Shown one piece after another: positions 31,507 to 63,554 of a stretch of DNA of 64,000 nt (position 1 is the first letter of the stretch; every line of letters begins with the position of its first letter). The translations under genes were made by a program, and so were the position numbers. The stretch comes from Hyunsoonleella aquatilis. GTDB lineage: Bacteria > Bacteroidota > Bacteroidia > Flavobacteriales > Flavobacteriaceae. Below the pieces are notes generated by a model. That model saw only the letters and a list, made by a program, of their open reading frames with translations, was not told where the DNA came from and searched no databases. The stretch lies in NCBI RefSeq assembly GCF_014270105.1, contig NZ_JACNMF010000005.1, forward strand, positions 124,001 to 188,000, in the 5' to 3' direction.

Positions 31507-31522
31507 TAAGTATAAATACTTA
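31507..31522. promoter_or_regulatory. 16 bp palindromic box upstream of nrtA
   Basis: TAAGTATAAATACTTA has perfect 7 bp arms around 2 bases, 23 bases before the nrtA ATG. A TATATTTG -7-like element lies at 31531-31538 on the minus strand, 8 bases upstream. The sequence is one of five TA(A/C)GTA-N4-TAC(T/G)TA sites in the window. Confidence 0.65.
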
Positions 31523-31538
31523 TTTTTAGGCAAATATA

Positions 31539-32156
31539 TAAGTACCCTTAGATATACCCCATGTTAAACCCCATAAACGCACCTCTTTTTAAACATATTG
31601 AAACCTATCAAAACACAGGTTTAATTCTTATTAAATTGGTTTTCAGATTATTGATTTCGAAATAATGATGCTTAGATTTACTTAACCCACTACGTATAAA
31701 CACATTATTGTTAATAATATTTTACGTATGTTTTACTTAAAACAGGAAAGTTTGAACAGGAAATGGTGGGTTTTGGGGTGAAGACTACGTAGTTTTTAGT
31801 TGTTACGTGAATTTTTGGCTTATACTGTTATTAAAGAAAAGAGGGATTTGCGGGTACGCTTATCGACCGGATATAAGAATATTAGCGGGTTTTTATACGC
31901 TAACTTTACGGTCAACTTAAGACTTTCTAGTAACTTTACTTACTTTCGTTTTAGCGATTAAACCGCTATTATTTTTATGTAATGTGGCTGTTGCACAACT
32001 AAATATTTCGTTTAAACTTATGTTTTGAAAACATTTCATTAACGTAAAATACTGATTACCAGTTTTAAATAAAACTATAAATTTATAAAGTCAAACGATT
32101 TATTGGTTTTTAACGGTTGCACAACAGCTACCATTATTGTGTGGCGTTGTTATATA
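31539..32156. other. 618 bp gene-free spacer upstream of nrtA
   Basis: No ORF or RNA gene was seen. It contains three TACGTA words (31691, 31723, 31787), one paired with TACTTA at 17 bp spacing (31723-31739), possibly extra or decayed regulator sites for nrtA. Its left part has near-palindromic words GGCTGTTGCACAAC (about 31986) and GGTTGCACAACAGC (about 32113), then a CCACACAATAATGG-type flank at the end of the sulfatase gene. Confidence 0.45.
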
Positions 32157-33593
32157 TTACTTTAATTTAGCTTTTAACGCATACTTTAACTCTTTGACTA
32201 AATTAGGATGGCTATCCGCTATGTTTTTGGTTTCCTTATCAACAGTTGTATGGTCATATAACTCTACAAACCCATCCTGATGAAGTGTCATTCGATGTGT
32301 TGATGTTCTAATGGTTGTAGCTTTATTTGTGTATGCTATGGCAGTATGACCAGAGGTGCTAGGATTTTCTAATATTTTTTTTAGCGATTCACCATTGGTA
32401 TATTTAGGAATTTCAATGCCGGTTAAATCGCACAAGGTAGGAAAGATATCTAGTGTTTCCACTATGGCATTTGTGTTAAATCCTTGATGCTTCATTTTAG
32501 GAAAGTGAATTATTAAAGGTGCATGTAAGGATTCTTCGAACAAACTATGCTTCCCCCAGATTGCGTGTTCTCCCAAGTGCCAACCATGGTCGCCCCAAAG
32601 TACAACAATGGTGTTTTTATCTGCACCTGTTCTTTTCAACTCTGCAAGGATTTTACCTACTTGAGCATCTGCATAACTAACACTTGCAGCATAATGACGA
32701 CGTACTTCATTAGCAAAATCAATATCTTTGTTAGGATTTTTACCCCAACGATTATATTTCATAAACTCATTAGACCCGTGCCATGTGGTTTTTCCTGTTG
32801 GTTTTTGAGGATGTTTTATTTCTGGAAGCTCAATTCTATCGTATTTATCATAATAAGATTTTGGTGCACCAAAAGGTAGGTGTGGTTTTATAATTCCGAA
32901 GGCAAGAAAAAAAGGTTTTTCGTTTTTGGTAGCAAGTTCTCTTAGTTGTTTCACGGCTTCATCTGCAATAACACCGTCGGGATAGATATTATCGTCTCCT
33001 TCTGCAGACTGAAAAACATCCATATCACTTGATTTTATTCGAATCTCTCCATTCGCTAGTCCGTGCATCATTCCCCGCGGATGTTCCCATTCCCCTACTG
33101 GCATAAGATGTTTATCCCAAGCATTTGGCATTTCAATTTTTGCGCTATCATTCCAATTCTTGCCACCTCTACCCCCTGGGTGATGAGAAACTTTACCTAC
33201 TGAAACTGTTGTATAACCATGTTTTTTAAACCACTCAGGCATACTTTTATCTATTTCTTGAGTGTCTTTGTTTATTTTAATTGCTCTACGAAAAAGGGCG
33301 TCGTTTGTTGCTGGACCAACCTTACCTGTTAACAAGGTATATCTAGACGGCCCACAGCTAGGGGCATTGACGAAATGTTTCTGAAATGTCATCCCCTTTG
33401 TGGCTAATGCGTCAATGTTTGGTGAACTAATATAATTTGTTCCAAAGCTTTTCAATTCTGGACGAAGGTCGTCTATACAAATTAGTAGAACATTAAGTTT
33501 TTCAGATTCTTGTGCATTTTTACAACTCATGATGATAAAAAAAGATAACACCGTAAAAAAAGAAGGTATTGTTTTTCCTACTCTAATATTCAT
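32157..33593 (-). CDS. Sulfatase, iduronate-2-sulfatase-like (S1 family) lipoprotein
   Basis: A protein of 478 residues. A probable lipobox is SFFIIMSCKNA (Cys24). The metal-binding Asp pair is in LLICIDDLRPE. The formylglycine motif is NAPSCGPSRYTLLTGK, where Cys80 (C-x-P-S-R) would be converted by an FGE-type maturase. VLWGDHGWHLGEH is the conserved metal-binding block. It is typical of flavobacterial polysaccharide or glycosaminoglycan sulfatases. No carbohydrate genes surround it, and its ends carry cassette-like flanks, so it may be an insertion in the nitrogen region. Confidence 0.9.
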   Translation of the reverse strand: MNIRVGKTIPSFFTVLSFFIIMSCKNAQESEKLNVLLICIDDLRPELKSFGTNYISSPNIDALATKGMTFQKHFVNAPSCGPSRYTLLTGKVGPATNDALFRRAIKINKDTQEIDKSMPEWFKKHGYTTVSVGKVSHHPGGRGGKNWNDSAKIEMPNAWDKHLMPVGEWEHPRGMMHGLANGEIRIKSSDMDVFQSAEGDDNIYPDGVIADEAVKQLRELATKNEKPFFLAFGIIKPHLPFGAPKSYYDKYDRIELPEIKHPQKPTGKTTWHGSNEFMKYNRWGKNPNKDIDFANEVRRHYAASVSYADAQVGKILAELKRTGADKNTIVVLWGDHGWHLGEHAIWGKHSLFEESLHAPLIIHFPKMKHQGFNTNAIVETLDIFPTLCDLTGIEIPKYTNGESLKKILENPSTSGHTAIAYTNKATTIRTSTHRMTLHQDGFVELYDHTTVDKETKNIADSHPNLVKELKYALKAKLK

Positions 33594-34053
33594 ATATATT
33601 TTATTTATTAGTTATTGACTTCGCTAATGCCACACAATGGTTAAATATGGTTCAGTTTTAATGAACTATATTGGATAAGCGAAGTTCGTGTTTTCCTGGC
33701 ACAAAGTCAATACGTGCTTACACGTGGTTTTCAACAAAAATGCATTACAAGAAGTGAGGTACGAGGGACGTGGTAATCTTAAACAACAAAAGGACAATTT
33801 CGGTATTTCATGAATGAGATTACTTCCTTACACTTCTTAATGACGTGTATTTTGGAGTGCACGTTTCCCCTCTCAAAAGAGGGGATTAAGGGGTGTGTAA
33901 AAACGATATTTGCAACTGTGAATAAAAAACACCTCCCTTAATCCCTCCTTATTAGGAGGGACACCCATGCTTTAAAACATGTTGCAAAAAATTTTTGTTT
34001 TTTTAAAAAGGAACAGAATATTGGGTTTAAAACAAAATTAGCAAACATGCCCC
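33594..34053. repeat. Spacer with inverted CCCC/GGGG repeat
   Basis: At 33864-33898 there is TTTCCCCTCTCAAAAGAGGG followed by GATTAAGGGGTGTGT. At 33929-33965 lies ACACCTCCCTTAATCCCTCC followed by TTATTAGGAGGGACACC, its inverted relative. The pair forms one long imperfect palindrome, each arm with its own hairpin. The remainder holds no ORF; a CCACACAATGG word near 33629 flanks the sulfatase start. Confidence 0.55.
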
Positions 34054-36490: not shown

Positions 36491-37303
36491 TTATTTTACA
36501 GCTACCAAATGCTTCATGGTTTCATAAGAGGACAGCTTTTGCACACTATCCAAAAACACTTCTGCCGTTGGTAAATAATTGCCTTCTGCGGGCCATTTAT
36601 CGCCTATTTCAGGCTTCTCGCTTTCTTCGAATGCCTCTATTTCATCCAAATATTCCATATAGATATCTACTGTTCCTTTGGCATAAGAATTCAACACCGC
36701 CACAGTTTCCTTATAGGACAAAGAGTCTTTTGGATACTGCCAAGTGGTAGCCCCCATAACATCACCCAATTCCCAATCGGATTTTGTCGTTTGCGGATGC
36801 TTATTATGGCAGGATACGCAGGCACCAGCACTAGCCAAGTCGGCAAACATGGCAGTATGCAGTTTTTGGTCTTCATCATAAAAGAATTGAGGTTTTTGGT
36901 CTTCCTTTATTTGCTTGAACAGTTCAGCCTGTCTACCTTCAAATTTATTCGCGGCATTTACAGGAAAGTCGGATCCCAAATACAAACCAAGCGGCACCGG
37001 CCCCTTCTTGATGCTAGTAGCAACGCCTCTTAAAAATAAAGCAGGTAACGGTCCTGCCTCCACATCATCCTTGCGCCAATCTTCGTCAAATTTCATGCCT
37101 TGTGCTTTTCCTTTGCCAACAATGGCTTTAGTGTACAATGTCCTAGTAACGTCATTTTCCTTAGCCACCATTTCCAAGACTTCTTCAACGGAAAAAACAT
37201 TTGCCGTAGCGGCGCTTTCCGATTTTTCCTCTGGTACGCCTCCGCATGAATTTAGAAATGCTAAACAAAATATTGTCAAATAAATTTTAAATAGGGTTTT
37301 CAT
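36491..37303 (-). CDS. Tll0287-like (DUF3365) haem c lipoprotein
   Basis: A protein of 270 residues with a lipoprotein signal (CLAFLNSCGG, Cys20). The single haem c motif GACVSCHNKHPQTTKSDW near residue 165 and the block FEGRQAELFKQIKEDQ place it in the Tll0287-like/DUF3365 family, periplasmic haem proteins with a PAS-like fold suspected of redox or gas sensing. It starts 17 bases after the globin gene. A sensor or electron-transfer role in the operon is possible; neither is demonstrated. Confidence 0.78.
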   Translation of the reverse strand: MKTLFKIYLTIFCLAFLNSCGGVPEEKSESAATANVFSVEEVLEMVAKENDVTRTLYTKAIVGKGKAQGMKFDEDWRKDDVEAGPLPALFLRGVATSIKKGPVPLGLYLGSDFPVNAANKFEGRQAELFKQIKEDQKPQFFYDEDQKLHTAMFADLASAGACVSCHNKHPQTTKSDWELGDVMGATTWQYPKDSLSYKETVAVLNSYAKGTVDIYMEYLDEIEAFEESEKPEIGDKWPAEGNYLPTAEVFLDSVQKLSSYETMKHLVAVK

Positions 37304-37320: not shown

Positions 37321-37734
37321 TTAATATGCAGCTTCAATCATCACGTCAGACATCGTTGTATAAACATCTGCCCAAGCATTTTTTACATCAATGGTAAACT
37401 CTTCACCTAAACCGGCTTCCAAAGTACCCAGCAAAGCGGCACCAACAGTATTGTAATGAGAAGCTTCTACTTTATACTCCACATGACGTTTGCCCAAATC
37501 TTGAAGTATTGGAATAAGAGCTTCCAGATTGCTTAATCCTGCAACAGCGGCCGCAAGCATAGACATTAGTTTATTACCTTGGACTTTCATTGCTTCACCA
37601 CTACTTGGAAACAAGGGTTTCAATTGTGGATCCAGCTCAAACAATTTTGCATAAAATATCTCAGCAGCTTGAGGGGCTATTGGCTTTACTTTTTCGAATG
37701 ATTCTTGCACAAGTGTAATAGTTTTTGCTTCCAT
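37321..37734 (-). CDS. Single-domain globin (Vitreoscilla/flavohaemoglobin-type)
   Basis: A protein of 137 residues starting MEAKTITLVQESFEKVKPIAPQ. The ATG at 37734 is chosen because an upstream in-frame start would add 20 non-globin residues across the promoter. It has the classical 3-on-3 pattern: FYAKLFELDPQLKPLFPSS (CD corner Phe), KVQGNKLMSML (distal Gln in the E helix) and LGKRHVEYKVEASHYNTVGAALL (proximal His). It lacks the reductase half of flavohaemoglobin, but a separate reductase is encoded three genes downstream. A 16 bp palindrome lies 35 bases upstream. Nitric oxide dioxygenation is the most likely role. Confidence 0.85.
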   Translation of the reverse strand: MEAKTITLVQESFEKVKPIAPQAAEIFYAKLFELDPQLKPLFPSSGEAMKVQGNKLMSMLAAAVAGLSNLEALIPILQDLGKRHVEYKVEASHYNTVGAALLGTLEAGLGEEFTIDVKNAWADVYTTMSDVMIEAAY

Positions 37735-37768: not shown

Positions 37769-37784
37769 TAAGTATTAATACTTA
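37769..37784. promoter_or_regulatory. 16 bp palindromic box upstream of the globin operon
   Basis: TAAGTATTAATACTTA, a perfect palindrome, 35 bases before the globin ATG. TACATTTG, a match to TAnnTTTG, lies just upstream on the minus strand (37792-37799). Confidence 0.65.
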
Positions 37785-37921
37785 CTATGAACAAATGTAG
37801 AATCTAAAATGCTAACGGATTATGAAATTGCGCAGTAGAAAAGCGTCTTTTGCAACATCTTAAAAACTGATAAAACGCAGGAAACGTAAAAATACTTAGA
37901 AAACAAAAGGGTTTTGAACTG

Positions 37922-38671
37922 TTAACTATCCAAGAAGTAGTTGTGGTCGCTGATCTCCTTCTTCAGAAGATCAATATCGTTAATTCCGATTTTCTTCCCT
38001 TTGGCAGTGATTAATTCTTCCTTTTTAAGTGCAGAAAACACACGAATCACCTGCTCTTCGGTTGTCCCCGCATAATCGGCATATTCCTTTCGGCTTAATG
38101 GCAAGTTGATATAGCCACGAAGATCTCCAAATTTTCTGTGGATATATAATAGGGAGTCGATGACGCGTTCGCGTACGGTCATTTGAGAAATGGATTTCAC
38201 CTTGTTTTCACTTCGGTTGAGTTCATTAGCGTAAAACAACATCATATCATAGGTAAACCTAGGGTTTGCAAGGAGTACGTCCTGCAAATATTCCTTTGAA
38301 AAGTAGTGCAATTCCGTATCTTTTAAGGCAATAGCCCCTATAGAATAATATTCCTGTGTACCAAAACCGCGATGGCCAACAATCTCACAAGGTTTGGCAA
38401 ATCGAACAATTTGCTCGCGCCCGTTAATACCAGTACGAATTACTTTTACAACCCCGGATTTTATAAAAAACAATCCGTTTACTGGAGCGCCTTCCATAAT
38501 AAACTGTTGCCCCTTTTTACATTTTAAGATGGTATTGCTCTGCGGTAAATTAGAGTTGAAAAGAACTTCAGAATGCTCGTTTATAACACAGTCTGAACTA
38601 TCGCACACATCACATGTGCTGTCTAGGACAGTACTGTTTTCAAATCTATGTTTTGGAGCGGAAAGTGACAT
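37922..38671 (-). CDS. FNR-like Crp family transcription regulator with N-terminal cysteines
   Basis: A protein of 249 residues with cyclic-nucleotide-type sensor fold and C-terminal helix-turn-helix (LSRKEYADYAGTTEEQVIRVFSALKKE). Cys20, Cys23 and Cys28 (STCDVCDSSDC) nearly coincide with Cys20, Cys23 and Cys29 of E. coli FNR; further Cys are at 51 and 95. An oxygen- or NO-sensitive Fe-S cluster is therefore plausible. The recognition helix has E-x-x-I-R where FNR has E-x-x-S-R. Its own promoter carries the 16 bp box, suggesting autoregulation. It lies between the globin operon and the nap operon. Confidence 0.85.
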   Translation of the reverse strand: MSLSAPKHRFENSTVLDSTCDVCDSSDCVINEHSEVLFNSNLPQSNTILKCKKGQQFIMEGAPVNGLFFIKSGVVKVIRTGINGREQIVRFAKPCEIVGHRGFGTQEYYSIGAIALKDTELHYFSKEYLQDVLLANPRFTYDMMLFYANELNRSENKVKSISQMTVRERVIDSLLYIHRKFGDLRGYINLPLSRKEYADYAGTTEEQVIRVFSALKKEELITAKGKKIGINDIDLLKKEISDHNYFLDS

Positions 38672-38697: not shown

Positions 38698-38713
38698 TAC
38701 GTAATAATACTTA
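38698..38713. promoter_or_regulatory. 16 bp palindromic box upstream of the FNR-like gene
   Basis: TACGTAATAATACTTA, 26 bases before the ATG. On the minus strand its last TA is also the TA of TATTTTTG, a match to the -7 consensus, so a bound protein would contact the core promoter. Confidence 0.6.
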
Positions 38714-38818: not shown

Positions 38819-40036
38819 TTATTTCTTGTACCGAAGTTTGCCCAATTCAATATTAATAGCAGTCTTCGCAAGAATGGTGAATACAAATGCACCCAATGCC
38901 CAAATCCCTAATGTTACCCCAATCTCTATTCCAGTTGGCGTATATTCTGCTATTTTACCATAGGGACCTGGAATAAATCCGGGCACAATCAAGCCAAAAC
39001 CTTTTTCAATCCAAATGGCTATAAAAAGTATAAAACATGAAAAGAACAGTATCTTAAAATTGTTTCTGAATTTATGGAAGGTCAGCAACACCGTAGCCAA
39101 AACGTTCAAAGGGATTGCCGTCCATATCCATGGCAACAAGGCATCTTTCCCGTGTAGGCCAAAGAATAAATAATACGCACTTTCACTATGGTGTGTGGGG
39201 GCATAAAACTCCTTAAAAAGCTCGGAAATCAGCATAATTAAATTGATTTGAGCCGCTACCGTCACTACCATTGCAATCTTTTTGATGGTTTTATCTTCGA
39301 TTTTAAAAGCTGTAAAGGTTCTAATGACGGCCAAAACCAATATAATCAGAGCAGGGCCTGCCGCAAACGCCGAAGCTAAAAATCGTGGACCTAAAAGTGC
39401 ATTGTTCCAAAATGGGCGCGCTTGCAAACCTTGGTACAAAAATGCAGTCACCAAATGAATGGCCACCGCCCAAAACACGGATAGAATTGCGCCCGGCACA
39501 TATACACTGGATTTCGATTTCTTGCCTTGATAGTGCCTAAATAAGATATAAAATGGAATAGACAGATTCAAAAACAGATAACCATTAAGCACCAAAACAT
39601 CCCAGGTCAACATCGAATTTGGAAAATTAAACACCCCTATCCCCGGAATCATGTGCCATAATACCGAAGGGCCTCCCATATCTGCAATCACAAAGGCTAA
39701 GCACATAATTAACGCCGCTACGGCCAACCCCTCTCCTATCAGTACGGCCTGTTTAAAGTCAATATCTTTTAACACATAAGTTGGCATGACCAGCATCACT
39801 GCTGCAGCGGCAACCCCCACCAAAAAGGTAAAGTTGGAAATGTAAAGCCCCCAGCTTACACGATCTGTCATCCCAGTGGCACTAAGGCCTTGGTCTAACT
39901 GAATCGAATAACAATACATCCCAACCAGCATCATAAAGGTTAAAAATGCCATCCAAATATGGTATTTCTTTGAACCATGGGTCGTGGTTTCTATACTATC
40001 CCTAACTAAACTTTTTAAAACTTTTAATCGTCTCAT
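38819..40036 (-). CDS. nrfD: NrfD/PsrC-type membrane quinol oxidoreductase subunit
   Basis: A protein of 405 residues with about ten membrane helices. SWGLYISNFTFLVGVAAAAVMLVMPTYVL near residue 60 is the typical NrfD quinone-site helix. The family exchanges electrons between quinones and Fe-S partners (polysulphide reductase, NrfC/NrfD, alternative complex III). It is encoded after the four-cluster Fe-S protein in the nap operon and should be its membrane partner, giving quinol-to-NapAB electron flow without NapC. Repeat copy D separates it from the Fe-S gene. Confidence 0.87.
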   Translation of the reverse strand: MRRLKVLKSLVRDSIETTTHGSKKYHIWMAFLTFMMLVGMYCYSIQLDQGLSATGMTDRVSWGLYISNFTFLVGVAAAAVMLVMPTYVLKDIDFKQAVLIGEGLAVAALIMCLAFVIADMGGPSVLWHMIPGIGVFNFPNSMLTWDVLVLNGYLFLNLSIPFYILFRHYQGKKSKSSVYVPGAILSVFWAVAIHLVTAFLYQGLQARPFWNNALLGPRFLASAFAAGPALIILVLAVIRTFTAFKIEDKTIKKIAMVVTVAAQINLIMLISELFKEFYAPTHHSESAYYLFFGLHGKDALLPWIWTAIPLNVLATVLLTFHKFRNNFKILFFSCFILFIAIWIEKGFGLIVPGFIPGPYGKIAEYTPTGIEIGVTLGIWALGAFVFTILAKTAINIELGKLRYKK

Positions 40037-40072
40037 TTAAATTTTTATTACAACTCCTAGTTTTACTATTTT

Positions 40073-40157
40073 GGGCGTTACCCCGATGGGGTCGGGCTTT
40101 CACTACTCAATCCCTCCTACGTCGGGGATTTCAAACATGCCGTTCAATCCCTAACGC
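40073..40157 (+). repeat. GGGCGTTACC...CCCTAACGC dispersed element, copy D
   Basis: An 85 bp element: GGGCGTTACCCC, GGGTCGGGCTTTCACTACTC, then ATGCCGTTCAATCCCTAACG and C. It lies inside the nap operon between the Fe-S and NrfD genes, antisense to transcription as copy B is in the Nrt operon. Confidence 0.7.
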
Positions 40158-40166
40158 GAGCCTTGG

Positions 40167-41285
40167 CTAATCCATAAAATACCAGAACTTAGGTTCCGTA
40201 CCCAAGTCTTCTTTTAATCTGAAAACTTTCTTGTTTTCCAACACCCATCTAATGGTACTATTGGGATCTAATAAATTCCCAAAAATACGTGCACCAGTAG
40301 GACAAGCTTCAACACAGGCAGGATTTTGTCCTTTTCTAGAACGTTGCACACAAAACGTACATTTTTCCATCACGCCCTTCTTACGCATTCTATTTCCTAA
40401 ATAATGCTGATTCTTATTAATTTCATTTTCAGGAACTTCAGGCTTACTCCAGTTAAAACGTCTGCCATCGTAAGGGCAAGCAGCCATACAATAACGGCAA
40501 CCCACACACCAATCGTAATCAATAACCACTAAACCATCATCTTCTCTCCAAGTAGCCTGTACAGGGCACACCTCTACACAAGGTGGATTATCACAATGAA
40601 AACACTGAGTTCCCATATAAAAATGACCCTCCGCAGGCACTTCGTGGTAATAATTATCATCGGCATCATTAAAATTAAAGCCCTTGCCATCCTTCATTTC
40701 ATGAATCCTGATGTATTGCATTTGTGAATTTCTATCCTGATTATTTTCTTCAATACATGCATTTACACAATCCATATACCCTTGGCACTTCGAAATATTA
40801 AAGGCATAGCCAAACAACACATCGTCATGTGCATTCTCATGCGAAATACTAATATTTTTGCCCGTTCGTAGTTCATAAGAGCGCATCAATCTATTTACCG
40901 TAGCCTCCTTTTCTTCATCTGTCATGAGTTTATAGTTGCCCTTAAACTGCTCTTCCCAATCTATTTGTGCCTTTTCTTTACTTTCGTCGCCAGAAAACAC
41001 ACTACATGACGTACTTACAGCGCCAGCACCAATCAACAAACTAGCCGTTAATTTTTTAAACGCGGTACGCCTATCCATTTGAACATCAAACACCTGCTCA
41101 AACCCATCTTTCTTTACCTCATCACCTATAGATGCATTTACCGCTGCTTCTAAAAAAGCATCATCAGTCATCTTTGATTCATGATTACCACATCCACCTT
41201 CGGTTTTACCGCAACTGCAGGATGTATCAGATTTTTTTCTCTTCAACCCTAAATCTAGCGAATACCATTTTTTATCTTCACTCAT
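40167..41285 (-). CDS. Four-cluster Fe-S protein of the nap operon (NrfC/ActB-like) with internal Tat-type signal
   Basis: A protein of 372 residues. The first 70 residues are cytoplasmic in style and hold a Cys-rich stretch (SCSCGKTEGGCGNH). They precede DRRTAFKKLTASLLIGAGAVSTSC, a Tat-like twin-Arg plus lipobox as in 'TAT-variant' ActB-type proteins. The Fe-S part has KCQGYMDCVNAC, CFHCDNPPCVEVCP, CVGCRYCMAACP and CTFC...ACVEACP, enough for four [4Fe-4S] clusters. It probably passes electrons from NrfD to the periplasmic cytochromes and NapA. Confidence 0.85.
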   Translation of the reverse strand: MSEDKKWYSLDLGLKRKKSDTSCSCGKTEGGCGNHESKMTDDAFLEAAVNASIGDEVKKDGFEQVFDVQMDRRTAFKKLTASLLIGAGAVSTSCSVFSGDESKEKAQIDWEEQFKGNYKLMTDEEKEATVNRLMRSYELRTGKNISISHENAHDDVLFGYAFNISKCQGYMDCVNACIEENNQDRNSQMQYIRIHEMKDGKGFNFNDADDNYYHEVPAEGHFYMGTQCFHCDNPPCVEVCPVQATWREDDGLVVIDYDWCVGCRYCMAACPYDGRRFNWSKPEVPENEINKNQHYLGNRMRKKGVMEKCTFCVQRSRKGQNPACVEACPTGARIFGNLLDPNSTIRWVLENKKVFRLKEDLGTEPKFWYFMD

Positions 41286-41295
41286 ACCTTAATAT

Positions 41296-41928
41296 TTAAT
41301 GACCAGCCTCTGCTTTAGGCGCTTCAACCTGCTCTGTATTATAGCGCGATGGCCACCTCGATTTAAAACTTGGATCGTGCGGATTATGACAATTCACACA
41401 TGTATATGATGCCCTTGGCGGTGCCCAGCCCGCTACTTTTTTACCATGCGCACCGCCTTTCCAATCTTCAAATTGTGAAGAGTGACACTGGGCACATAGC
41501 TTATAACTTTTATTAAAATCTACCTTATTTCCTGTTAACGTATTTAAGGCATTCATATCCTCGCCATTGTGACAGGTTGCACAATTCATCGTGCTTTCAT
41601 CAGCATGCGCCAAGGTAATTTCCCAATGTGCTTTCTTGATATCTTTACTTTGTAATTTGTCCAATCCAACATTATGGCATTCAATACAAGCGAATGATTT
41701 TATTTGACCCTTCCGTTCAGGAATTAAGAAGGTATGTTCGCCTTCGGTAATTTCAACAGTTTTAATACCGTCAATCAATTCTTCGGAAGATAAACTCCCA
41801 TGATAGCTTTTACTTTCGGCTTTAATTATATCATTCAAATTATGATATTCACCTTCGTTATGCTTACAAGAAAAAAGCACAAACAAAAACGCACATGCTA
41901 AACTATATTCGTAGAGCTTTCTATTCAT
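41296..41928 (-). CDS. Tetrahaem cytochrome c lipoprotein of the nap operon
   Basis: A protein of 210 residues with a lipoprotein signal (FLFVLFSCKHN, Cys21). Four CXXCH motifs: CIECH, CATCH, CAQCH and CVNCH. The last is in SYTCVNCHNPHDPSFKSRWP. It overlaps the upstream napB gene by 8 bases and precedes the Fe-S gene by 10, so it belongs to the same transcript. It would be a periplasmic electron carrier anchored to a membrane, plausibly between the Fe-S/NrfD module and NapB/NapA. No exact family name is offered. Confidence 0.8.
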   Translation of the reverse strand: MNRKLYEYSLACAFLFVLFSCKHNEGEYHNLNDIIKAESKSYHGSLSSEELIDGIKTVEITEGEHTFLIPERKGQIKSFACIECHNVGLDKLQSKDIKKAHWEITLAHADESTMNCATCHNGEDMNALNTLTGNKVDFNKSYKLCAQCHSSQFEDWKGGAHGKKVAGWAPPRASYTCVNCHNPHDPSFKSRWPSRYNTEQVEAPKAEAGH

Positions 41929-42616
41929 TGCTATCTATTTTAGTTCTTGAAAAAGGTGTTATTTCTGAAACAACTCTATCCGTTGGCACATGGCATTGTC
42001 TACAATTAACACGCTCTGGGTGTGTTACTCTTATCTCTTTGGGAGCCGCAGGTCCTGCATGACACGATAAACAATTCTCCCGCATTTGAATTTGGTGTGG
42101 TATCATGGGCGGTGTGCCAATTAAAGCATTATTTACACCCACTTTTGGAGCATTTACCTGCGCCATATTAGTCGCTTTAAATAGCGTATTACTATTTTGT
42201 GCTACATGACATTGCCTACAATTAATCATTTCTGGATGTGGCGTCACAGGCGCATATGCCTTATATTTATTGACAAATCCACCGTTTTGATGGCATTGCA
42301 AACAGGTATTATCACCCAAATTCATTTCTTCAACAGGATGCGGAATACTTGGTGGTGCACCATGATAAGCTCTGTTTTTATAATAATCTTTCAATAATCT
42401 TTGATGGTTTTCATCAACAGGCATATTAGCGTATTCTGTAGCATATTCAGAACGCTCAAAAACTCCAGCTTCTGATGGTAAATAGTAATCAGAACTACTA
42501 TCTTCTACTGGAATATAGGCTTCTTCCAAACCTTGCTGATAACTAAAATTCCAAATGGTAATAAAAGCTATAAAGAGCAGTACAAAAAGTGAAATAATCC
42601 CGAGTCGCTTTTTCAT
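41921..42616 (-). CDS. napB: NapB-like cytochrome, internally duplicated to four haem motifs
   Basis: A protein of 231 residues with an N-terminal membrane anchor (LGIISLFVLLFIAFITIW). Two similar units follow. Unit 1 (about 86-138) has GAPPSIPHPV, NTCLQCH and MINCRQCHV. Unit 2 (about 166-210) has GTPPMIPHQI, ENCLSCH and RVNCRQCHV. Ordinary NapB has two haems; this one has four, at Cys105, 133, 182 and 205. It directly follows napA (3 bases) and is the expected electron donor to it. Confidence 0.82.
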   Translation of the reverse strand: MKKRLGIISLFVLLFIAFITIWNFSYQQGLEEAYIPVEDSSSDYYLPSEAGVFERSEYATEYANMPVDENHQRLLKDYYKNRAYHGAPPSIPHPVEEMNLGDNTCLQCHQNGGFVNKYKAYAPVTPHPEMINCRQCHVAQNSNTLFKATNMAQVNAPKVGVNNALIGTPPMIPHQIQMRENCLSCHAGPAAPKEIRVTHPERVNCRQCHVPTDRVVSEITPFSRTKIDSNE

Positions 42617-42619
42617 ATA

Positions 42620-54850: not shown

Positions 54851-56284
54851 CTATTTCAAAGTTTTGGTTAAAGTTTTCTTCTCAAAACTACTTTTCGGGG
54901 CCTCACATAGCGAACATTGGTAATCTTCCGGTAAATCTTCAAAAGCCGTGTTTGGTTCAATATTTTGTGTTATATCACCGTATTTCGGGTTGTAAACCGT
55001 CATGCATTCCGAACATTGATGTACTTCCTCTTCATAAGTTTCCTGAATAATGGTTTTTACCCCCTCCTCTGGGATATTTCCTAATTGCTCAAAGTACAAT
55101 TGGCTTAACTCCATTAACAAACCCGGTAACTCTACTTTATCCACATCCTGTACGTGCATGATATATTCCCGAGTATTAGGATCGAAATTTTTAGCGTACA
55201 ATAAATTGTAAGTATCCCTAATCACAAAGTTTCCTACCGACTCTGGAGTTTTATTCTTTTCAATGACGACTGACGTGAAATTGTAGGTATCACTATCATA
55301 ATTGGTGATACCAAAAGTTAAGCCATAGGTACTAATATCGTTCTGATCAAAATTGGTCACTAAATACTTTTTCAAGCTCAAAGCTTCGGTGTCACTGACA
55401 GGAACATGCCAGTTCATTTCTAACATGGAGTGACGTACATTGATACCGAATTTTCCCAGAAGTTTTTCCCATTGCAATTTGGATTTTTCGGGAATTCCTT
55501 TCACGATAAACGACTTCCAAGGCGTTAAGGATATTTTACCAATCTTGTTTTCCGAGCACAAATCGCACATTGCCTTTAAAAATGGAATGTCATAACGATT
55601 GCTCCTCCAATACAGTCCTAACCAATAGCGATCCGTTCCTACCCTATTCATACCTTCATAGTACGGGAAGGGATAGAAGGGAACTTTTAATGGTTTATCC
55701 ACGGTTCTGTTATTGGTATCGGCCAAATCACTTACCAATTCAAAAACGGTTTCGATGGTTTCGGGCTCCTCAATGAGAATGTCTTCAATGGCCTTTTCAA
55801 TCTTGTCCATATCCCAACTGTAAATCAAAGCCGGGTACATTTGAGTAGTAGCCCAACCCGGAAGTCTTACGTACAAATACCAATAGTCCTCATGCTCTGA
55901 AGCGATAAAATTAATATTTCCTGTAAATAAAGGCACCAAGCGTTGTTTGGGATCGGTAACATTAATACGAAGTTTAGGCCTGTATTTAAACTGTTCCAAA
56001 ACATAAAGGTATCTATCACTGGTAAGCCATGGCGTACTAGGGAAAATCTCTGCGGAAACATAGGATGAAGCGATGTTTTCGACACTATCCCGTTTTGGTT
56101 TTACAAACTTTATTTTTGGGAACTGATCGAATTTTTCTTCATTGATAGCTTCAGGAAAAATGATGTCCTGCCTCGAACCAAAAGAAATAGCATCAAGCCC
56201 CAAGCCTTCCGCAGCCTCGCAAATATATTTTAATTCTCCTGGCGATACGACACCACCGCTTATCATCAATCTGTATGGTTCCAT
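54851..56284 (-). CDS. Rubredoxin fused to a siroheme-reductase-like protein without siroheme cysteines
   Basis: A protein of 477 residues. The N-terminus, RLMISGGVVSPGELKYICEAAEGLGL, is the nitrite/sulphite reductase ferredoxin-like half domain, and a second such half seems present in the middle (VRHSMLEMNWHVPVSDTEAL). The C-terminus has HQCSECMTVYNPKYG and DYQCSLCEAPKSSFE, a rubredoxin with its four Cys Fe site. No C-x5-C ... C-x3-C cluster motif of siroheme enzymes is present. It overlaps the Nas fusion gene by one base, so it is its cotranscribed partner and is probably an electron-transfer protein. Confidence 0.8.
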   Translation of the reverse strand: MEPYRLMISGGVVSPGELKYICEAAEGLGLDAISFGSRQDIIFPEAINEEKFDQFPKIKFVKPKRDSVENIASSYVSAEIFPSTPWLTSDRYLYVLEQFKYRPKLRINVTDPKQRLVPLFTGNINFIASEHEDYWYLYVRLPGWATTQMYPALIYSWDMDKIEKAIEDILIEEPETIETVFELVSDLADTNNRTVDKPLKVPFYPFPYYEGMNRVGTDRYWLGLYWRSNRYDIPFLKAMCDLCSENKIGKISLTPWKSFIVKGIPEKSKLQWEKLLGKFGINVRHSMLEMNWHVPVSDTEALSLKKYLVTNFDQNDISTYGLTFGITNYDSDTYNFTSVVIEKNKTPESVGNFVIRDTYNLLYAKNFDPNTREYIMHVQDVDKVELPGLLMELSQLYFEQLGNIPEEGVKTIIQETYEEEVHQCSECMTVYNPKYGDITQNIEPNTAFEDLPEDYQCSLCEAPKSSFEKKTLTKTLK

Positions 56285-59200
56285 TATGCTAATACTTTTG
56301 AATTTTGAAGTATCTCGCGAACTTCTGTTTTACAACTGCCACATCCCAAGCCTGCCCCGGTAGTATTGCAAAGCTTGGTAAAATCGGTACAGCCACCTGC
56401 GATGGCCTCTTCAATATTTCCTGCACCTACCTGACTGCAGGAACAGACGAGTTTGCCTAATACAGGGACATCATTGGAAGAGCCTCTGAGCAATTTATCC
56501 CGCTTGTCAGCCATTTCGATCTTACTTTCAATCATACCCTTGAATTCGGCAAATTCATTTTTATCGCCCATTAAAACTGCACCCAAAAGCAAATCATCCT
56601 TGACGATACACTTCTTATAGTATCGCTTTTTGATATCTGTGAATATAATTTCTTCATAACTATTATCATTCTCCGGTACGTTGATATCTCCGATACTGCA
56701 CAGACTCAAATCGTTAAATTTCAATATATTCATTAATACAGAACCATTATATGAGCTACTAATATCACCAGCCATAAAATTCGCCAAAATGTTGGCCTGC
56801 TCCTCGGCTGCCGAAGTAATACCAAATAATTGGTTATTGAATTCAGCTATTTCACCTATGGCAAAAATGTCCGGATGGGAGGACTGCAAATGCTGATTCA
56901 CTTTTACACCTCGGCTACATGCAATACCGTTGGATCTGGCAATCTCTACATTAGGAATCGTACCAATTGCATAAACGATGGCATTGGCCGTAATGGATTT
57001 TCCACTTTTTAAATTGATATTCAATTCTCCCGTATCCTCATCATCAAAAACGGTACTTACCTCATTATCGAAATAAATCTGTATACCACGCTCCTGCACG
57101 TCCAAAGCCAGCAATTTACTGGACACCTTATCCAATTGACGCTCCATCAAACGAGACGCGCGTTGTACAATCGTAATTCTCGCATTTTTATGTTTCATAG
57201 CGGCAGCCAGCTCCAAACCGAGCAAACCACCACCAACAATCACCACATGCTGTTCTTCGGGTGGCAACCCAGTGGCATCTAAATAAGCTTTGAATTTATC
57301 GGCGTCGGATTTATTACGCATGGTGAAACGACCTGGTAAATCAATTTGTACATCTCTCGGAATAAAGGCACGGCTCCCCGTAGCCAGAATTAATTTATCA
57401 AAATTATGGGTAGCCCCCTTACTATCGGTAACGGTTTTATTTTCTCTATCGATTTTGACAATGTAGGTTTCTGGATATAAGTTGACATCAAGCTTATTGA
57501 GTTCTTTCTCCTTGATTTTCAGCAGTTGTTCCCAGGTCAATTCCTCCGTTACATATTCAGGCAACAACACTCTGTTATAAAATAAATGCGATTCTTTAGA
57601 AAATACATGCATCTCGTCCAACTCATTCTGTTCTCGATAATTTTGAACAAATCTAAAGGCCGCCGCTCCTGCTCCGGCAATAATGATTTTCTCTTTAGGT
57701 TTAGAGTATTTTGACACCGAAACTCGAGTAAACTTAAAGTCCGGTTCCTTGGAGGTTGGATCCACATGGGTATTGGTCAGGTTATTAGCCCTGTTCAGAT
57801 TACTTTGTAATTGTTTGCCCCAATGCATTGGTAAAAACACCACGCCTTTTTTTATACTTTCAGTAACGCTAGCGCGTACTCTAACAGTACCATTTTCACC
57901 TTTAATTTCAGTAATGTCCCTATCCTTAATCTTGTATAGGAAAGCATCAACGGGGTTGATTTCCAAAACAGGCTTTGGATAATGCGTTTTTAGTCGCGAT
58001 ACTTTACCCGTTTTGGTCATGGTATGCCATTGGTCCCGAACCCGACCCGTAGTTAAAATAAGTGGGTAATCCGGATTGGGTTGAACTGAGGTATTTTCAA
58101 TGGTACTTGGTAGATTAAACTGAGCCTTCCGAGAAGGCGTGTAAAACTTTTTATCCTGAAACAGCCTAGGAGTGCCTTGGTGCCTATTTTCTGGCACAGG
58201 CCATTGAAAGGTGCCTTCAGCCTTCAATCTATCATAATTTAGGAAAGACACATCAATATTGGTGCCTTTGGTCATGGAAGCGTACTCGTCATAAACCTCA
58301 CTCGAGCTATTAAAATTAAAGCCTCTAAAACCCATACGACGTGCAAAATCACAAAAGATTTCAACATCGGAACGTGCTTCCCCTGGCGGATCTATTTCTT
58401 TAGGCAAATAGGAAATGCGCCTTTCAGAATTAGTCATTGTGCCTTCTTTCTCAAGCCAAGCTGCAGCCGGCAGTACTAAATCCGCATGGGCAACGGTGTC
58501 CGATTTATGTGAAATATCCTGAACCACCACAAACTTGGCATTTTTCATGGCTTTTTCAACACGATTCAAATTGGGAAGACTGACCAAAGGATTGGTGCAG
58601 GCTATCCAAACAGCTTTTAATTTTCCGCTTTCAAGTGCATCAAACATTTCAGTGGCAGTCAATCCTGGTTTGGGATTGATTTTATCCACACCCCAAAACT
58701 GGGCCACCTCACGACGATGCTCTTCGTTCATTAAATCCTTGTGAACGGCCAACAAGTTTGCCATGCCTCCCACCTCACGACCTCCCATCGCATTAGGCTG
58801 ACCTGTTAATGAAAAAGGACCAGCCCCCGGTTTACCAACTTGCCCGGTAATTAGAGACAAATTTAGAAGCGACACATTCTTATCAGTACCAACCACACTT
58901 TGGTTAAGACCCATGGCCCACATGCTTATAAATCCTTTTGAAAGGCCAATCATATCGGCCGCCTTTTGAATGTCCTTTTCTGGAATGCCACAAATTTTGG
59001 AGGCCTGTTTTAGAGACGTCTTAAAGATTAAATTCTTATAATCCTGGAAACCTTCGGTATAATTATTAATGAACTTCTCATCTATTAGCCCACGCTTGTA
59101 CAAACAACGGCCAATGGCATTGTACAGCACCACATCCGTTCCTGGAAGTAACTGCAAGTGTAAATCTGCAAAGTTGGCAGTATCCGTTTTTCTCGGGTCC

Positions 59201-59805
59201 ACCACGATTATTTTTACATCCGGGTTTTCTTCTTTATGTTTTTCAAGTCGTCTGAACAAAATAGGGTGACACCATGCAGGATTAGCTCCTGTAATCAGAA
59301 AGGTATCGGCCAATTCAATATCTTCATAGGAAACGGGTACGCTGTCCTCCCCAAATGTTTTTTTATAACCGACCACGGCTGAACTCATGCACAGACGTGA
59401 GTTAGTGTCAATATTGTTGGTACCAATAAAACCTTTGGTCAATTTATTGGCGATATAGTATTCCTCTGTTAAACTCTGGCCAGACACATAAAAACCAACA
59501 CTATCCGGACCGTGTTTTTTGATAATAGATTTAAAAACGCTGGCGGCTCGGTCTAGAGCATCATCCCAACTCACACGTTCACGGGGATGGGATCGGCTCC
59601 ATCGCATTTCGGGATACAAAATCCTATCGGAAGTATCGTTGGCCACATAATGCAAATTCATGCCCTTAGAACACAGCATGCCCTTGTTTACAGGGTGATC
59701 TTTATCGCCTTCAACAAAAACCTTATCATTGCTGTCCTTTTTAACAATAATGCCACAGCCAACACCGCAGTAGGAACAGGTTGTTTTCACTTCACTTTTT
59801 ATCAT
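56284..59805 (-). CDS. nasA: Assimilatory nitrate reductase, NasA-NasB type fusion (Mo-bisMGD, FAD, BFD 2Fe-2S)
   Basis: A protein of 1173 residues, without Tat signal, hence cytoplasmic. The N-terminal ~690 residues are NasA: [4Fe-4S] Cys10, 13, 17 and 45, the Mo-ligand Cys139 in SRLCMSSAV, and TGRVRDQWHTMTKTGKV. Then comes an FAD/NAD-dependent reductase as in NasB/NirB (IIIAGAGAAAFRFVQN near 697; VVIVGGGLLGLELAAA). The end is a BFD-like 2Fe-2S domain (KLVCSCSQVG, GLGCGSCKTEV). One polypeptide can thus take electrons from NAD(P)H to nitrate. Confidence 0.92.
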   Translation of the reverse strand: MIKSEVKTTCSYCGVGCGIIVKKDSNDKVFVEGDKDHPVNKGMLCSKGMNLHYVANDTSDRILYPEMRWSRSHPRERVSWDDALDRAASVFKSIIKKHGPDSVGFYVSGQSLTEEYYIANKLTKGFIGTNNIDTNSRLCMSSAVVGYKKTFGEDSVPVSYEDIELADTFLITGANPAWCHPILFRRLEKHKEENPDVKIIVVDPRKTDTANFADLHLQLLPGTDVVLYNAIGRCLYKRGLIDEKFINNYTEGFQDYKNLIFKTSLKQASKICGIPEKDIQKAADMIGLSKGFISMWAMGLNQSVVGTDKNVSLLNLSLITGQVGKPGAGPFSLTGQPNAMGGREVGGMANLLAVHKDLMNEEHRREVAQFWGVDKINPKPGLTATEMFDALESGKLKAVWIACTNPLVSLPNLNRVEKAMKNAKFVVVQDISHKSDTVAHADLVLPAAAWLEKEGTMTNSERRISYLPKEIDPPGEARSDVEIFCDFARRMGFRGFNFNSSSEVYDEYASMTKGTNIDVSFLNYDRLKAEGTFQWPVPENRHQGTPRLFQDKKFYTPSRKAQFNLPSTIENTSVQPNPDYPLILTTGRVRDQWHTMTKTGKVSRLKTHYPKPVLEINPVDAFLYKIKDRDITEIKGENGTVRVRASVTESIKKGVVFLPMHWGKQLQSNLNRANNLTNTHVDPTSKEPDFKFTRVSVSKYSKPKEKIIIAGAGAAAFRFVQNYREQNELDEMHVFSKESHLFYNRVLLPEYVTEELTWEQLLKIKEKELNKLDVNLYPETYIVKIDRENKTVTDSKGATHNFDKLILATGSRAFIPRDVQIDLPGRFTMRNKSDADKFKAYLDATGLPPEEQHVVIVGGGLLGLELAAAMKHKNARITIVQRASRLMERQLDKVSSKLLALDVQERGIQIYFDNEVSTVFDDEDTGELNINLKSGKSITANAIVYAIGTIPNVEIARSNGIACSRGVKVNQHLQSSHPDIFAIGEIAEFNNQLFGITSAAEEQANILANFMAGDISSSYNGSVLMNILKFNDLSLCSIGDINVPENDNSYEEIIFTDIKKRYYKKCIVKDDLLLGAVLMGDKNEFAEFKGMIESKIEMADKRDKLLRGSSNDVPVLGKLVCSCSQVGAGNIEEAIAGGCTDFTKLCNTTGAGLGCGSCKTEVREILQNSKVLA

Positions 59806-59997: not shown

Positions 59998-61413
59998 TTA
60001 ACTTTCTACCTTAACAGGAATTAGGTTTTCGGTATCTAAATTAGCCACTTCCTCATCTTCAGTTGAAAAACGGATAGCCAAGGACACTATCGCAGTCATC
60101 ACCACTATTGCTCCAATTATAAAATATCCTGATGAAACAGCTCCGGATGACGCTACAGATTGGGCCGTCTTTATGGCCTCCTCTCCTAAACCTTGATTGG
60201 CCGCAATGGCTGCCTTTTCTGCAACGGCGGATTGTGACTTTAACAACATTGCCGCTAAAAAAGCACCTACATTACCCCCAGCACCCACGATTCCGGAAAC
60301 AGAACCTATGGCCTTTTTGTTAATGAAAGGCACTACCGAAAATGTTGCACCTTCTGCCATTTGGACAGATAAACTGAATAGGATTAAAAACAAAATCCCA
60401 ACAACAATACTTGTGGCACTTGAAAAAGTCATCAACATTGCTCCCTGAACCGCCAAAATCCCAGATAGAAATAAAACTCGGCCTCTTAAACCTTTCAGCT
60501 TTCCAAACTTATCTCCGAAGAAACCGCCAAGTGTTCGAGCAAAAATATTCATCAATGCAAAGGACAATACGATATTTCCAGCAGTTACCCTTTCCAATTG
60601 AAAGGTGTTTTGAAGGTAATCATCCATGGTGCCGTACACCGTCAATTCTATACCGAAACAAGAAGCGTATACTAAAAACAGAATCCAAGTTCTGTAATCT
60701 TTAATCACTGTAAGGAATCCAACTTTGTCCTTTTTAGTAGTTATCGTTTCGCCCGAAGCCTTTAAATCCTTAAAGTTTCCTTGAGGTGTATCTTGAGTAA
60801 AGAAATAATAAACAAGCCCCATGATAAAACAAACCGTACCGGCAATAACCATAGAATATCTCCAAGCTTCCGCCTCAGCAACGCCAAAACCTACTACGGC
60901 GGCCGCTATTAACGGCATACCTAAGCGGTTAGCGCCTCCACCTAGATTTCCCCATCCTGCTGATGTAGCATTTGCTGTTCCTACAATATTCGGAGCAAAC
61001 ATCAATGAGGTGTGCACCTGCGTAATCACAAACGAGGCTCCGATAAAACCAATAAACAATCTACAGGTTAGAAACTGTAATGGGGTTTGCACCAAACCGC
61101 AAAGAATAACGGGAATGGCTCCTAAAATCAATAGCCAAGTATAACAAAGTCTTGGACCATATTTATCACATAATTTACCAATCAATAAACGAGCGAAAAC
61201 GGTGCCCGAAACCGCTAAAATGATAGAGTTCCACTTTTGATCAGGTGTTAAACCTAAATCCTTAACCACGTCCGGCATAAACGGAACAATACCAAACCAT
61301 GCGAAGAAACACATGAAAAATGATATTGCCGTTATCCAAAAGGTGCGTATAGGCAGGCTTTTTAGGTTGTACAATTTTAATGTCGTTGATTTAGTGTGTG
61401 TTGTGGCATTCAT
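59998..61413 (-). CDS. narK: NarK/NasA-type nitrate/nitrite MFS transporter
   Basis: A protein of 471 residues with about twelve membrane helices. The nitrate signature appears twice, as GTANATSAGWGNLGGGANRLG near residue 145 and GSVSGIVGAGGNVGAFLAAML near 370, each with the conserved Gly-rich stretch. An Arg for anion binding is in LTCRLFIGFIGASFV. It is encoded upstream of the Nas fusion in the same direction, but 190 bases apart. Its promoter has the densest set of TACGTA/TAAGTA sites in the window. Confidence 0.93.
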   Translation of the reverse strand: MNATTHTKSTTLKLYNLKSLPIRTFWITAISFFMCFFAWFGIVPFMPDVVKDLGLTPDQKWNSIILAVSGTVFARLLIGKLCDKYGPRLCYTWLLILGAIPVILCGLVQTPLQFLTCRLFIGFIGASFVITQVHTSLMFAPNIVGTANATSAGWGNLGGGANRLGMPLIAAAVVGFGVAEAEAWRYSMVIAGTVCFIMGLVYYFFTQDTPQGNFKDLKASGETITTKKDKVGFLTVIKDYRTWILFLVYASCFGIELTVYGTMDDYLQNTFQLERVTAGNIVLSFALMNIFARTLGGFFGDKFGKLKGLRGRVLFLSGILAVQGAMLMTFSSATSIVVGILFLILFSLSVQMAEGATFSVVPFINKKAIGSVSGIVGAGGNVGAFLAAMLLKSQSAVAEKAAIAANQGLGEEAIKTAQSVASSGAVSSGYFIIGAIVVMTAIVSLAIRFSTEDEEVANLDTENLIPVKVES

Positions 61414-61416: not shown

Positions 61417-61456
61417 TAAGTACTTTTATACGTACAAATCTACGTATTAATACTTA
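61417..61456. promoter_or_regulatory. narK promoter with two boxes around a -7 element
   Basis: TACGTATTAATACTTA (61441-61456) is the box. On the minus strand its final TA begins TAGATTTG (61435-61442), a match to TAnnTTTG, 21 bases before the ATG. A second, wider-spaced pair, TAAGTA-N6-TACGTA, covers 61417-61434 downstream of the -7. Confidence 0.65.
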
Positions 61457-61735
61457 ATTTGTGTGCTAAAAACTTACGTATTACTTGATTTATGCGAAGT
61501 TGACAATTTGGGGGTGCGGATTTTATGGATTTGGTAAATAGGATAGCATTTTATGACCATTTTTTGGAATTAATGAATGCGTTGTTATGTCACTTTACAC
61601 AGTCATATAACCTATAAAATTCATGAGTTTTTTATTATCTTAGATGATAAATATAATCGATATAACAGCAATTTTATGGTTTAGAGTTGCTGTTATACAT
61701 ATGTTGTGTGTAATTTGAGTAAACCCCAAAGAAAT

Positions 61736-62168: not shown

Positions 62169-62552
62169 ATGAGATTAAATGCTGGAATACTAACTACAAA
62201 ACTATAAGAAAGAAAGTCATTTTATAAGGAGAATCTAGGATTTAAGATCAAAGTTGAAAATGAATTTTACCTTCTTCTTAAAACACCTAATGAAAAAGAT
62301 ACATTGAGCTTTCTTTTACCAAATCATCCAACTCAGCAACCTTTTTTTCATAAACCTTTTCAAGGAGAAGGAATGTACCTAACTATCGAGGTTGACAATG
62401 TCGATAAGTTATATGAAGAAATAAAAAGTAAGGGAGTTGAAATAAAGGTGGATATAAGGGACGAACCTTGGGGAGAAAGACATCTTTCCATTGAAGACCC
62501 AAACGAAATTGGAATTGATATTATAAAATATACACAACTAATTGGAAAATAA
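62169..62552 (+). pseudogene. VOC (glyoxalase-like) family gene with in-frame stop
   Basis: The frame from ATG 62169 reads RLNAGILTTKL, then TAA at 62205-62207, then ERKSFYKENLGFKIKVENEF and on to YLTIEVDNVDKLYEEIKSKG and EDPNEIGIDIIKY. Both sides match a normal VOC domain, so a single stop at codon 13 interrupts it. Translation could restart only at non-ATG codons such as the TTG at 62304. Either a real nonsense mutation or a base error. Confidence 0.7.
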
Positions 62553-62839
62553 AAAACTACACACAACAATGGCTATAAGTAATTGCTTTCTCTCGCCTAC
62601 TTTGGAAATTCCTTCGGAATTTCCAACTTGGTGCGTACTTGCAAAGTTAACTGCTAAACCACGCAACTACTCATAGGTACTGTGTTAAAAACCAAGTTTT
62701 TTAGACAAAAATTTTGGTAAACATACGAGCCGAGACCGATGTGGGATAATTTGACCCGTCCTGAATAAAGGCTACATAATTTTAAACATTAAACACTAAA
62801 ACAGCAAAGTAATTAAATAGCTTTGGGGGCATCGTCTAT
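62553..62839. repeat. Palindrome-rich spacer after the VOC gene
   Basis: A CACACAACAATGGCTATAAG word is followed by a perfect hairpin TTGGAAATTCC-TTC-GGAATTTCCAA (62602-62626) and then AAAGTTAACTGC...CCACGCAAC. The whole looks like a large imperfect cruciform of about 100 bp. The rest of the spacer shows no ORF. Confidence 0.5.
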
Positions 62840-63505
62840 CTAAACCAACCCAAACTCCCTAGCCTTATCCGTCAATTCCTTTAGATTGGACACCTCTAAT
62901 TTTTTCATCAAATTAAAACGGTGTACTTCCGCCGTACGCTTGCTGATTTGCAGTTCATCAGCAATATCTTTGTTATTTTTAAGCTCCAATACCAAGCCTA
63001 AAATTTGCTTTTCGCGTTTGGTAAGGTTAAATGGATCTCCTTTTGGAGCAGTCTTGCGTTCTACGGCAGAACTTGTATTACCATCAACAAAATTGTTCAT
63101 AATTATGGCGGACACATCACCTGTAAAATACTTACCTCCCGAGGCTACTTTATTCAGAGCCTTTAAAAACTCTTCTTTGCTTGCCCCTTTCAATAAATAG
63201 CCGTCCGCACCTGCTTGAATGGCCTGCACGACATATTCCTCAGAATCGTGCATGGATAGCACCAAAGTTTTTACATCAGAACCTGATTTGTTTATTTCAC
63301 CTACCACTTCAATACCGTTCATTTCTGGCATCCGGATATCCACTATCAATATGTGCGGTTTACTTCTTTGGATAACTTCAAGGGCCTCTCTTCCATTCGA
63401 AGCTTCATCAATTACTTCGATACCTGTCTGGTCTTCCAAAAGCGCCCTTATTCCATCCCTTACCAAAACATGGTCATCAGCAAGTACAACTTTAATTTTG
63501 TCCAT
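62840..63505 (-). CDS. NarL/FixJ-type response regulator
   Basis: A protein of 221 residues. The receiver domain has DD at 10-11, phospho-acceptor Asp56 in LIVDIRMPEMNG and Lys in LLKGASKEEF. The LuxR-type helix-turn-helix is FNLTKREKQILGLVLELKNNKDIADELQISKRTAEVHRFNLMKKL. Its sensor kinase is not in the window. The 16 bp box lies 34 bases upstream, tying it to the nitrate/globin genes. TACTTTTG at 63525-63532 is a likely -7 element. Confidence 0.92.
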   Translation of the reverse strand: MDKIKVVLADDHVLVRDGIRALLEDQTGIEVIDEASNGREALEVIQRSKPHILIVDIRMPEMNGIEVVGEINKSGSDVKTLVLSMHDSEEYVVQAIQAGADGYLLKGASKEEFLKALNKVASGGKYFTGDVSAIIMNNFVDGNTSSAVERKTAPKGDPFNLTKREKQILGLVLELKNNKDIADELQISKRTAEVHRFNLMKKLEVSNLKELTDKAREFGLV

Positions 63506-63538
63506 TAACTAGCAATTATAAGTACAAAAGTAAGAAAA

Positions 63539-63554
63539 TAAGTAATACTACGTA
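63539..63554. promoter_or_regulatory. 16 bp palindromic box upstream of the response regulator gene
   Basis: TAAGTAATACTACGTA, with the same 6-4-6 layout as the other boxes, 6 bases upstream of the -7 element TACTTTTG (minus strand). Confidence 0.6.

Follow-up and report, generated by a model that had tools for sequence, protein, structure and literature searches.

The closest described relatives of the system reported here are the Escherichia coli NarX-NarL and NarQ-NarP systems, with a NarX/PilJ-type sensor, a HisKA_3 kinase, a receiver-GerE regulator and nitrate-gene targets; the NarL site there consists of TACYYMT heptamers in inverted 7-2-7 order. FNR-type regulators have the consensus TTGAT-N4-ATCAA. 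We analysed a stretch of 64,000 nucleotides from Hyunsoonleella aquatilis (the window; NZ_JACNMF010000005.1, positions 124,001-188,000, assembly GCF_014270105.1) that carries five copies of a 16-bp palindrome, TAMGTA-N4-TACKTA (the box), and encodes a NarL/FixJ-type response regulator (narL) and a Crp/Fnr-type regulator (fnrL). The system shares the E. coli components listed above, whereas its targets serve mainly uptake and assimilation and its kinases have a PAS domain and no HAMP or GAF match in Pfam. In this they resemble the nitrate-sensing kinases described in Bacteroidetes, which combine the sensor with PAS, lack HAMP/GAF-like domains and lie near nitrate genes (PMC8199190); the part of that paper considered here covers kinases and gene neighbourhoods and contains no operator or target list. 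The FixLJ-FixK system of rhizobia, in the part of its description considered (PMC4999443), is similar in having a LuxR-type regulator with a similar helix, a published 16-bp FixJ site at fixK, TAAGTAATTTCCCTTA, and a Crp/Fnr gene as a target that forms a second layer; it differs in sensing oxygen via the haem protein FixL, whereas a NarX-type sensor and nitrate genes are found here.

The five exact boxes lie as follows, with their promoter class, which is set by the position of the -7-like element TAnnTTTG and described below:

31507-31522, minus strand: box before nrtA, class B, TAnnTTTG beginning 16 bases ahead of the box
37769-37784, minus strand: box before the globin gene, class B, TAnnTTTG beginning 15 bases ahead of the box
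38698-38713, minus strand: box before fnrL (FNR-like gene), class A, final TA of the box forming the TA of TAnnTTTG
61441-61456, minus strand: box before narK, class A, final TA of the box forming the TA of TAnnTTTG
63539-63554, minus strand: box before narL (NarL/FixJ-type gene), class C, TAnnTTTG beginning 22 bases past the first base of the box

The initial annotation had reported five boxes at these positions and no other in the window, a chance expectation far below one, and a location 20-50 bases before start codons. Each point holds: no sixth exact box occurs anywhere in the 64 kb, 100 dinucleotide shuffles of the window gave 0, and the distance to the ATG is 22 (nrtA), 34 (globin), 26 (fnrL), 27 (narK) or 33 (narL) bases. 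Matches with up to two mismatches numbered only 16 against 7.7 expected, so it is mainly the exact sites that are informative. Across the whole genome (21 contigs, 3.93 Mb) we found nine exact boxes, five of them within this 64 kb, against four matches to the reversed pattern, our control; because a one-mismatch scan showed no enrichment (41 against 80 for the control), degenerate sites were left unused. Another exact box lies 23 bases ahead of nirB on contig C19, and the genome-wide distribution, proposed earlier as a check, favours a regulon. An exact box reading TAAGTATTAATACTTA was also seen at C1:1205994, 93 bases upstream of an aconitase-type gene; among eight relatives matched, one (G117) has an upstream box, one (G131) has a compatibly placed one and six have none; this gene is a possible member of the regulon. 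The two remaining boxes have no evident target gene. Extra single TACGTA/TACTTA half-sites occur near the narK (61420-61460) and nrtA (31680-31790) promoters; those at narK are spaced by 10-12 bases and may provide added regulator contacts.

Conservation upstream of orthologues, the second check that had been suggested, also favoured the regulon. In related loci (the best 80 of 169, chosen by similarity to FnrL, totalling 1.59 Mb and mostly from named flavobacteria such as Algibacter, Hyunsoonleella, Polaribacter, Tamlana and Flavivirga) there were 228 exact boxes against one match to the control. With reference genes drawn from the window or contig C19, and on the basis of inferred gene starts, 223 of the 228 precede relatives of nrtA (83), fnrL (63), globin (35), narL (17), narK (12), nas (11) or nirB (2), and no box in these 80 loci falls well within a reference-gene relative. 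The shared nitrate/nitric oxide (NO) regulon that had been suggested from five sites is thus real and coherent, and it is conserved well beyond the window.

The most likely binder of the box is, on sequence grounds, the narL-type protein, which has a PF00072 receiver and a PF00196 GerE domain, both above cut-off, as a NarL/FixJ-type regulator should. In a survey of 149 genomes of the family (thresholds E<=1e-50 for narL, E<=1e-40 for fnrL and E<=1e-60 for narK), narL was present in 42, fnrL in 32 and narK in 31, and the 42 include every one of the genomes with narK or fnrL. Ten genomes have narL and, at the FnrL cut-off, no fnrL; boxes are kept at nitrate genes in all ten. Within 20 kb of narL lie 34 of the 50 boxes of these genomes, at nirB, nas, narK, nrtA, narL, globin, moeA or porin-like genes; the other 16 are elsewhere, eight of them in a single genome (G018), several with a common core. 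In a wider draw at class level, narL (E<=1e-60) was found in 6 of 296 genomes, and two of these six, from other families, combine narL, kinase and boxes (G378 with four boxes, G331 with two).

The recognition helix of the regulator, S[KR]RTxE[VT]HRFN, is retained in 42 of 42 aligned narL rows, with overall identity as low as 48%, and it matches FixJ at RT-EVHR-N-M-K. EsrB and SsrB outscore FixJ against narL and also share much of the helix, which is therefore not unique to FixJ. The one published FixJ site compared, TAAGTAATTTCCCTTA, agrees with the box at 10 of 12 specified positions. The likeness to a NarL heptamer noted in the initial annotation looks superficial by comparison: at two mismatches, 7-2-7 arrangements of the general consensus occur in the window at chance (7 matches against 6.1 expected), and only one of the seven touches a box. 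The half-site also varies with the helix. Among boxes near narL, the box of narL itself excluded, genomes with a V helix have 104 TAAGTA and 22 TACGTA half-sites and those with a T helix have 17 and 49; the split is 78:16 (V) and 8:26 (T) with FnrL and 26:6 and 9:23 without it.

Taken together, the box is probably the operator of a nitrate-responsive two-component system, bound by the narL-type regulator, with FnrL as a second layer. Nitrate would be sensed by a membrane kinase of the NarX/PilJ type, whose gene follows nirB and its box on a different contig, and this kinase would signal to the regulator of the NarL/FixJ type that is encoded at 62840-63505. That protein would then bind TA[AC]GTA-N4-TAC[GT]TA and set the transcription of genes for uptake (narK, nrtA) and nitrate/nitrite reduction (nas, nirB), of the globin gene, of fnrL and, in many genomes, of narL itself. 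FnrL, its gene lying behind a box, may in turn act at nrtA and globin through sites of its own, of the form TG-N8-CA. The sites, their conservation and spacing, the gene context and the co-occurrences are observed directly; from them we infer the identity of the binder, the nitrate signal, the pairing of kinase with regulator and the regulatory sign. The genes concerned in the window are:

30093-31484, minus strand: nrtA-like binding protein of a nitrate ATP-binding cassette transporter (NMT1_2 domain match)
37321-37734, minus strand: single-domain globin gene (family match)
37922-38671, minus strand: fnrL, Crp/Fnr-type regulator, box target and proposed TG-N8-CA binder (domain match, co-occurrence)
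54851-56284, minus strand: nirA-like protein (named by sequence features)
56284-59805, minus strand: nitrate reductase of the nas type with a fused NirB-like part (named by sequence features)
59998-61413, minus strand: narK, nitrate/nitrite transporter of the major facilitator superfamily (family match)
62840-63505, minus strand: narL, NarL/FixJ-type response regulator and proposed box binder (Response_reg and GerE domains)

A relative of the PilJ/NarX-type kinase (PilJ, PAS, HisKA_3, HATPase) was present in 30 of 41 narL regions fetched from other genomes, 24 of the 30 at 59% identity or more, and the NarX/PilJ-type sensor domain PF13675 was detected in five of six kinases scanned. The H. aquatilis copy, 71% identical, lies at C19:6819-8639 on the same strand as nirB and downstream of it, and the two genes may share one transcript. 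Its P-box reads VINIAGRQRMLSQKL and contains the G-x-x-R motif quoted for NarX-type sensors in the part of PMC8199190 considered; it was assigned by identity and motif together. This kinase is predicted to bind nitrate and to phosphorylate the narL-type regulator.

The position of the box relative to TAnnTTTG falls into three classes, and the five window boxes and the nirB box all fit one of them. In class A, TAnnTTTG begins exactly 14 bases past the first base of the box (fnrL 49 of 65 rows, nirB 29 of 37, narK 24 of 36, nas 15 of 27), and the earlier observation that the final TA of the box doubles as the TA of TAnnTTTG at fnrL and narK is borne out at both. In class B, TAnnTTTG begins 15-17 bases ahead of the box (nrtA 80 of 100 rows, globin 34 of 38), and in class C it begins 22-25 bases past the first base of the box (narL 34 of 42). 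Genes were assigned to these rows by inferred starts. Some organisms appear to be represented both among the family genomes and among the loci, so that these rows, and those counted below within 220 bp of starts, are partly non-independent. Distances relative to the transcription start are estimates from the -7 element, read by the general scheme for Bacteroidota promoters. The class B elements in the window are:

31531-31538, minus strand: -7-like element TATATTTG of nrtA (TAnnTTTG match)
37792-37799, minus strand: -7-like element TACATTTG of the globin gene (TAnnTTTG match)

A -33 element was sought as a pointer to activator dependence; general promoters gave almost no signal for one (12 of 73, 0.16 against 0.12 in shuffled sequence), and none was found in Flavobacterium johnsoniae in the part of that study considered (PMC7366714).

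FnrL is tentatively assigned to the TG-N8-CA sites because of co-occurrence and FNR-like spacing, and in the window the proposed sites are:

31562-31573, minus strand: TG-N8-CA before nrtA, proposed FnrL site (fixed spacing, co-occurrence)
37823-37834, minus strand: TG-N8-CA before globin, proposed FnrL site (fixed spacing, co-occurrence)
27013-27024, minus strand: TG-N8-CA ahead of the porin-like gene at 25652-26905, proposed FnrL site (less certain)

Near-duplicates (80% identity) and promoters lacking TAnnTTTG at the offset of their class were excluded from the following counts, as from the logo. The centre of TG-N8-CA falls 28.5 bases ahead of the -7-like element at nrtA in 71 of 75 promoters and at globin in 27 of 33; a second copy, 44-45 bases farther upstream, is present in 65 of the 75 and 19 of the 33; the narK, nirB, fnrL, nas and narL promoters have no TG-N8-CA peak at the nrtA/globin positions. 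Where FnrL is present, TG-N8-CA correctly spaced from TAnnTTTG occurs within 220 bp of the start of nrtA in 77 of 82 cases, of the porin-like gene in 22 of 70 and of moeA in 13 of 40, against 0 of 4, 0 of 8 and 0 of 2 where FnrL is absent, the latter samples being small; narK carries the arrangement in 1 of 31. The window contains three such spaced arrangements against 0.36 expected. The site resembles those of the FNR type in having the spacing of TTGAT-N4-ATCAA and a constant position ahead of the -7-like element, and differs in that its inner bases are degenerate and a second copy lies about 45 bases upstream; matches to the classical FNR site with two mismatches were at chance in the window (68 against 70.2 expected). 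Among the nrtA genes of the four genomes lacking fnrL, those of G115 and G138 have class A promoters, and at the remaining two TAnnTTTG is absent from position 14. The porin-like gene, which follows nrtD, is preceded by a TG-N8-CA and -7 arrangement of its own at 26982-27024; in G115 and G138, which lack fnrL, a porin-like gene carries a box instead. FNR proteins have cysteines able to hold a 4Fe-4S cluster. FnrL orthologues have a C-x2-C-x4-C motif near the N terminus and two further cysteines, a pattern seen in all 12 orthologues examined of 80; this spacing, which we take to be unlike that of E. coli FNR, may represent a cluster-binding variant.

Several observations weigh against the assignment of the box to narL. 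The fnrL gene has no exact box just upstream in 19 of the 80 loci, and the pattern alone is not diagnostic: among the matches listed, 108 of the 149 family genomes have at least one exact box, and 18 narL-less genomes have five or more, counted regardless of gene context. In four narL-less genomes (G105, G113, G084 and G010) palindromes of the TACGTAGAACTACGTA type are repeated many times, probably as a different repeat. The box of narL itself, exact and within 220 bp, is present in 38 of 52 FnrL-bearing sources and in 3 of 10 without FnrL. The V/T helix change occurred once on the tree, in a single clade; background hexamers shift in the same direction, if less (659:206 for V, 159:107 for T), and the G+C content is higher in T-helix loci (0.384 against 0.344). 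Since narL tracks nitrate genes generally, co-occurrence alone would also fit another co-travelling regulator.

Such a third regulator, always accompanying nitrate assimilation and binding the box while narL is merely linked, would fit this confounding of narL with nitrate-gene presence, but it is unlikely given that narL lies in the cluster, often behind a box, and that its helix is FixJ-like and the published FixJ site resembles the box. The initial annotation had named two candidate binders, and of these the NarL-type protein is the one that co-occurrence and helix favour. The other, the FNR-like protein, would recognise the box as a variant FNR site, AAGTA-N4-TACTT, and autoregulate its own gene: a box precedes fnrL in 61 of 80 loci, aligned FnrL retains E and R of the recognition helix of FNR, the G of the box stands at the half-site position of FNR sites if the geometry is taken from the general consensus, and Crp/Fnr relatives with altered sites exist, such as HcpR2 with GTAAC-N4-GTTAC (PMC1274295, in the part considered). 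Nevertheless, the ten narL-bearing genomes without fnrL keep their boxes, the best Crp/Fnr protein there being at most 35% identical and G138 having none at E<=1e-5; genomes with FnrL have a separate site of FNR geometry, TG-N8-CA, and the FnrL helix is nearly constant where the box half-site shifts. We therefore consider this protein very improbable as the binder and demote it to a target and second layer. That the palindrome arose by chance or from a repeat has a negligible probability: TACGTA-repeat elements do abound in some narL-less genomes, but the counts in the related loci and a chance expectation of zero boxes in the window lead us to reject it.

The sign of regulation is less clear. 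The TAnnTTTG element begins exactly 14 bases after the box start at several unrelated genes, a fixed spacing that suggests contact with polymerase, and we lean towards activation at class A promoters. Boxes that overlap the -7-like element, or follow it as in class B, point instead to blocking, and the class B position also argues against a simple activator. A regulator acting purely as a repressor, covering the promoter in all classes and released by the nitrate signal, would account for a box that overlaps or flanks the -7-like element throughout (TA shared in A, just past it in B, ahead of it in C). Steric blocking, however, would not need class A spacing fixed at 14, and the kinase or regulator would have to work opposite to NarX-NarL logic in E. 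coli as generally understood; we regard pure repression as possible, though not as the reading to prefer. We tentatively suggest that Bacteroidota nitrate regulators could activate transcription while bound to an operator whose final two bases also belong to the -7 element, the box then occupying the space in which a -33 element would be approached, and that where an FNR-like regulator is present nrtA might be activated from FNR-like sites upstream, with the box across the -7 element and its role switching with the side.

Two neighbouring features were also observed. An operon upstream of fnrL, at 38819-44947, encodes a NapA-like molybdoprotein and multihaem cytochromes, together with a ferredoxin-type protein and a membrane protein resembling NrfD/DsrP; neither an exact box nor the TG-N8-CA arrangement precedes napA relatives (0 of 17). 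Adjoining the globin gene, 36491-37303 encodes a Tll0287-like haem-domain lipoprotein, a possible extra sensor or NO-related protein.

No title or abstract opening on the box or on a flavobacterial NarL-type regulon was found in the literature, a weak negative in that subscription papers were mostly outside the search. The box is likely an operator not described before, with a probable binder, and the two-component system it would serve is of a known kind. In the part of PMC8199190 considered, the open questions include what nitrate-sensing kinases do in each organism, and signalling in Bacteroidetes. With the operator defined, its targets listed and a partner regulator named, the proposal can be tested directly in culturable marine flavobacteria. 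The two promoter classes, together with the exchange at nrtA, also provide a natural contrast for studying control of the unusual Bacteroidota promoter.

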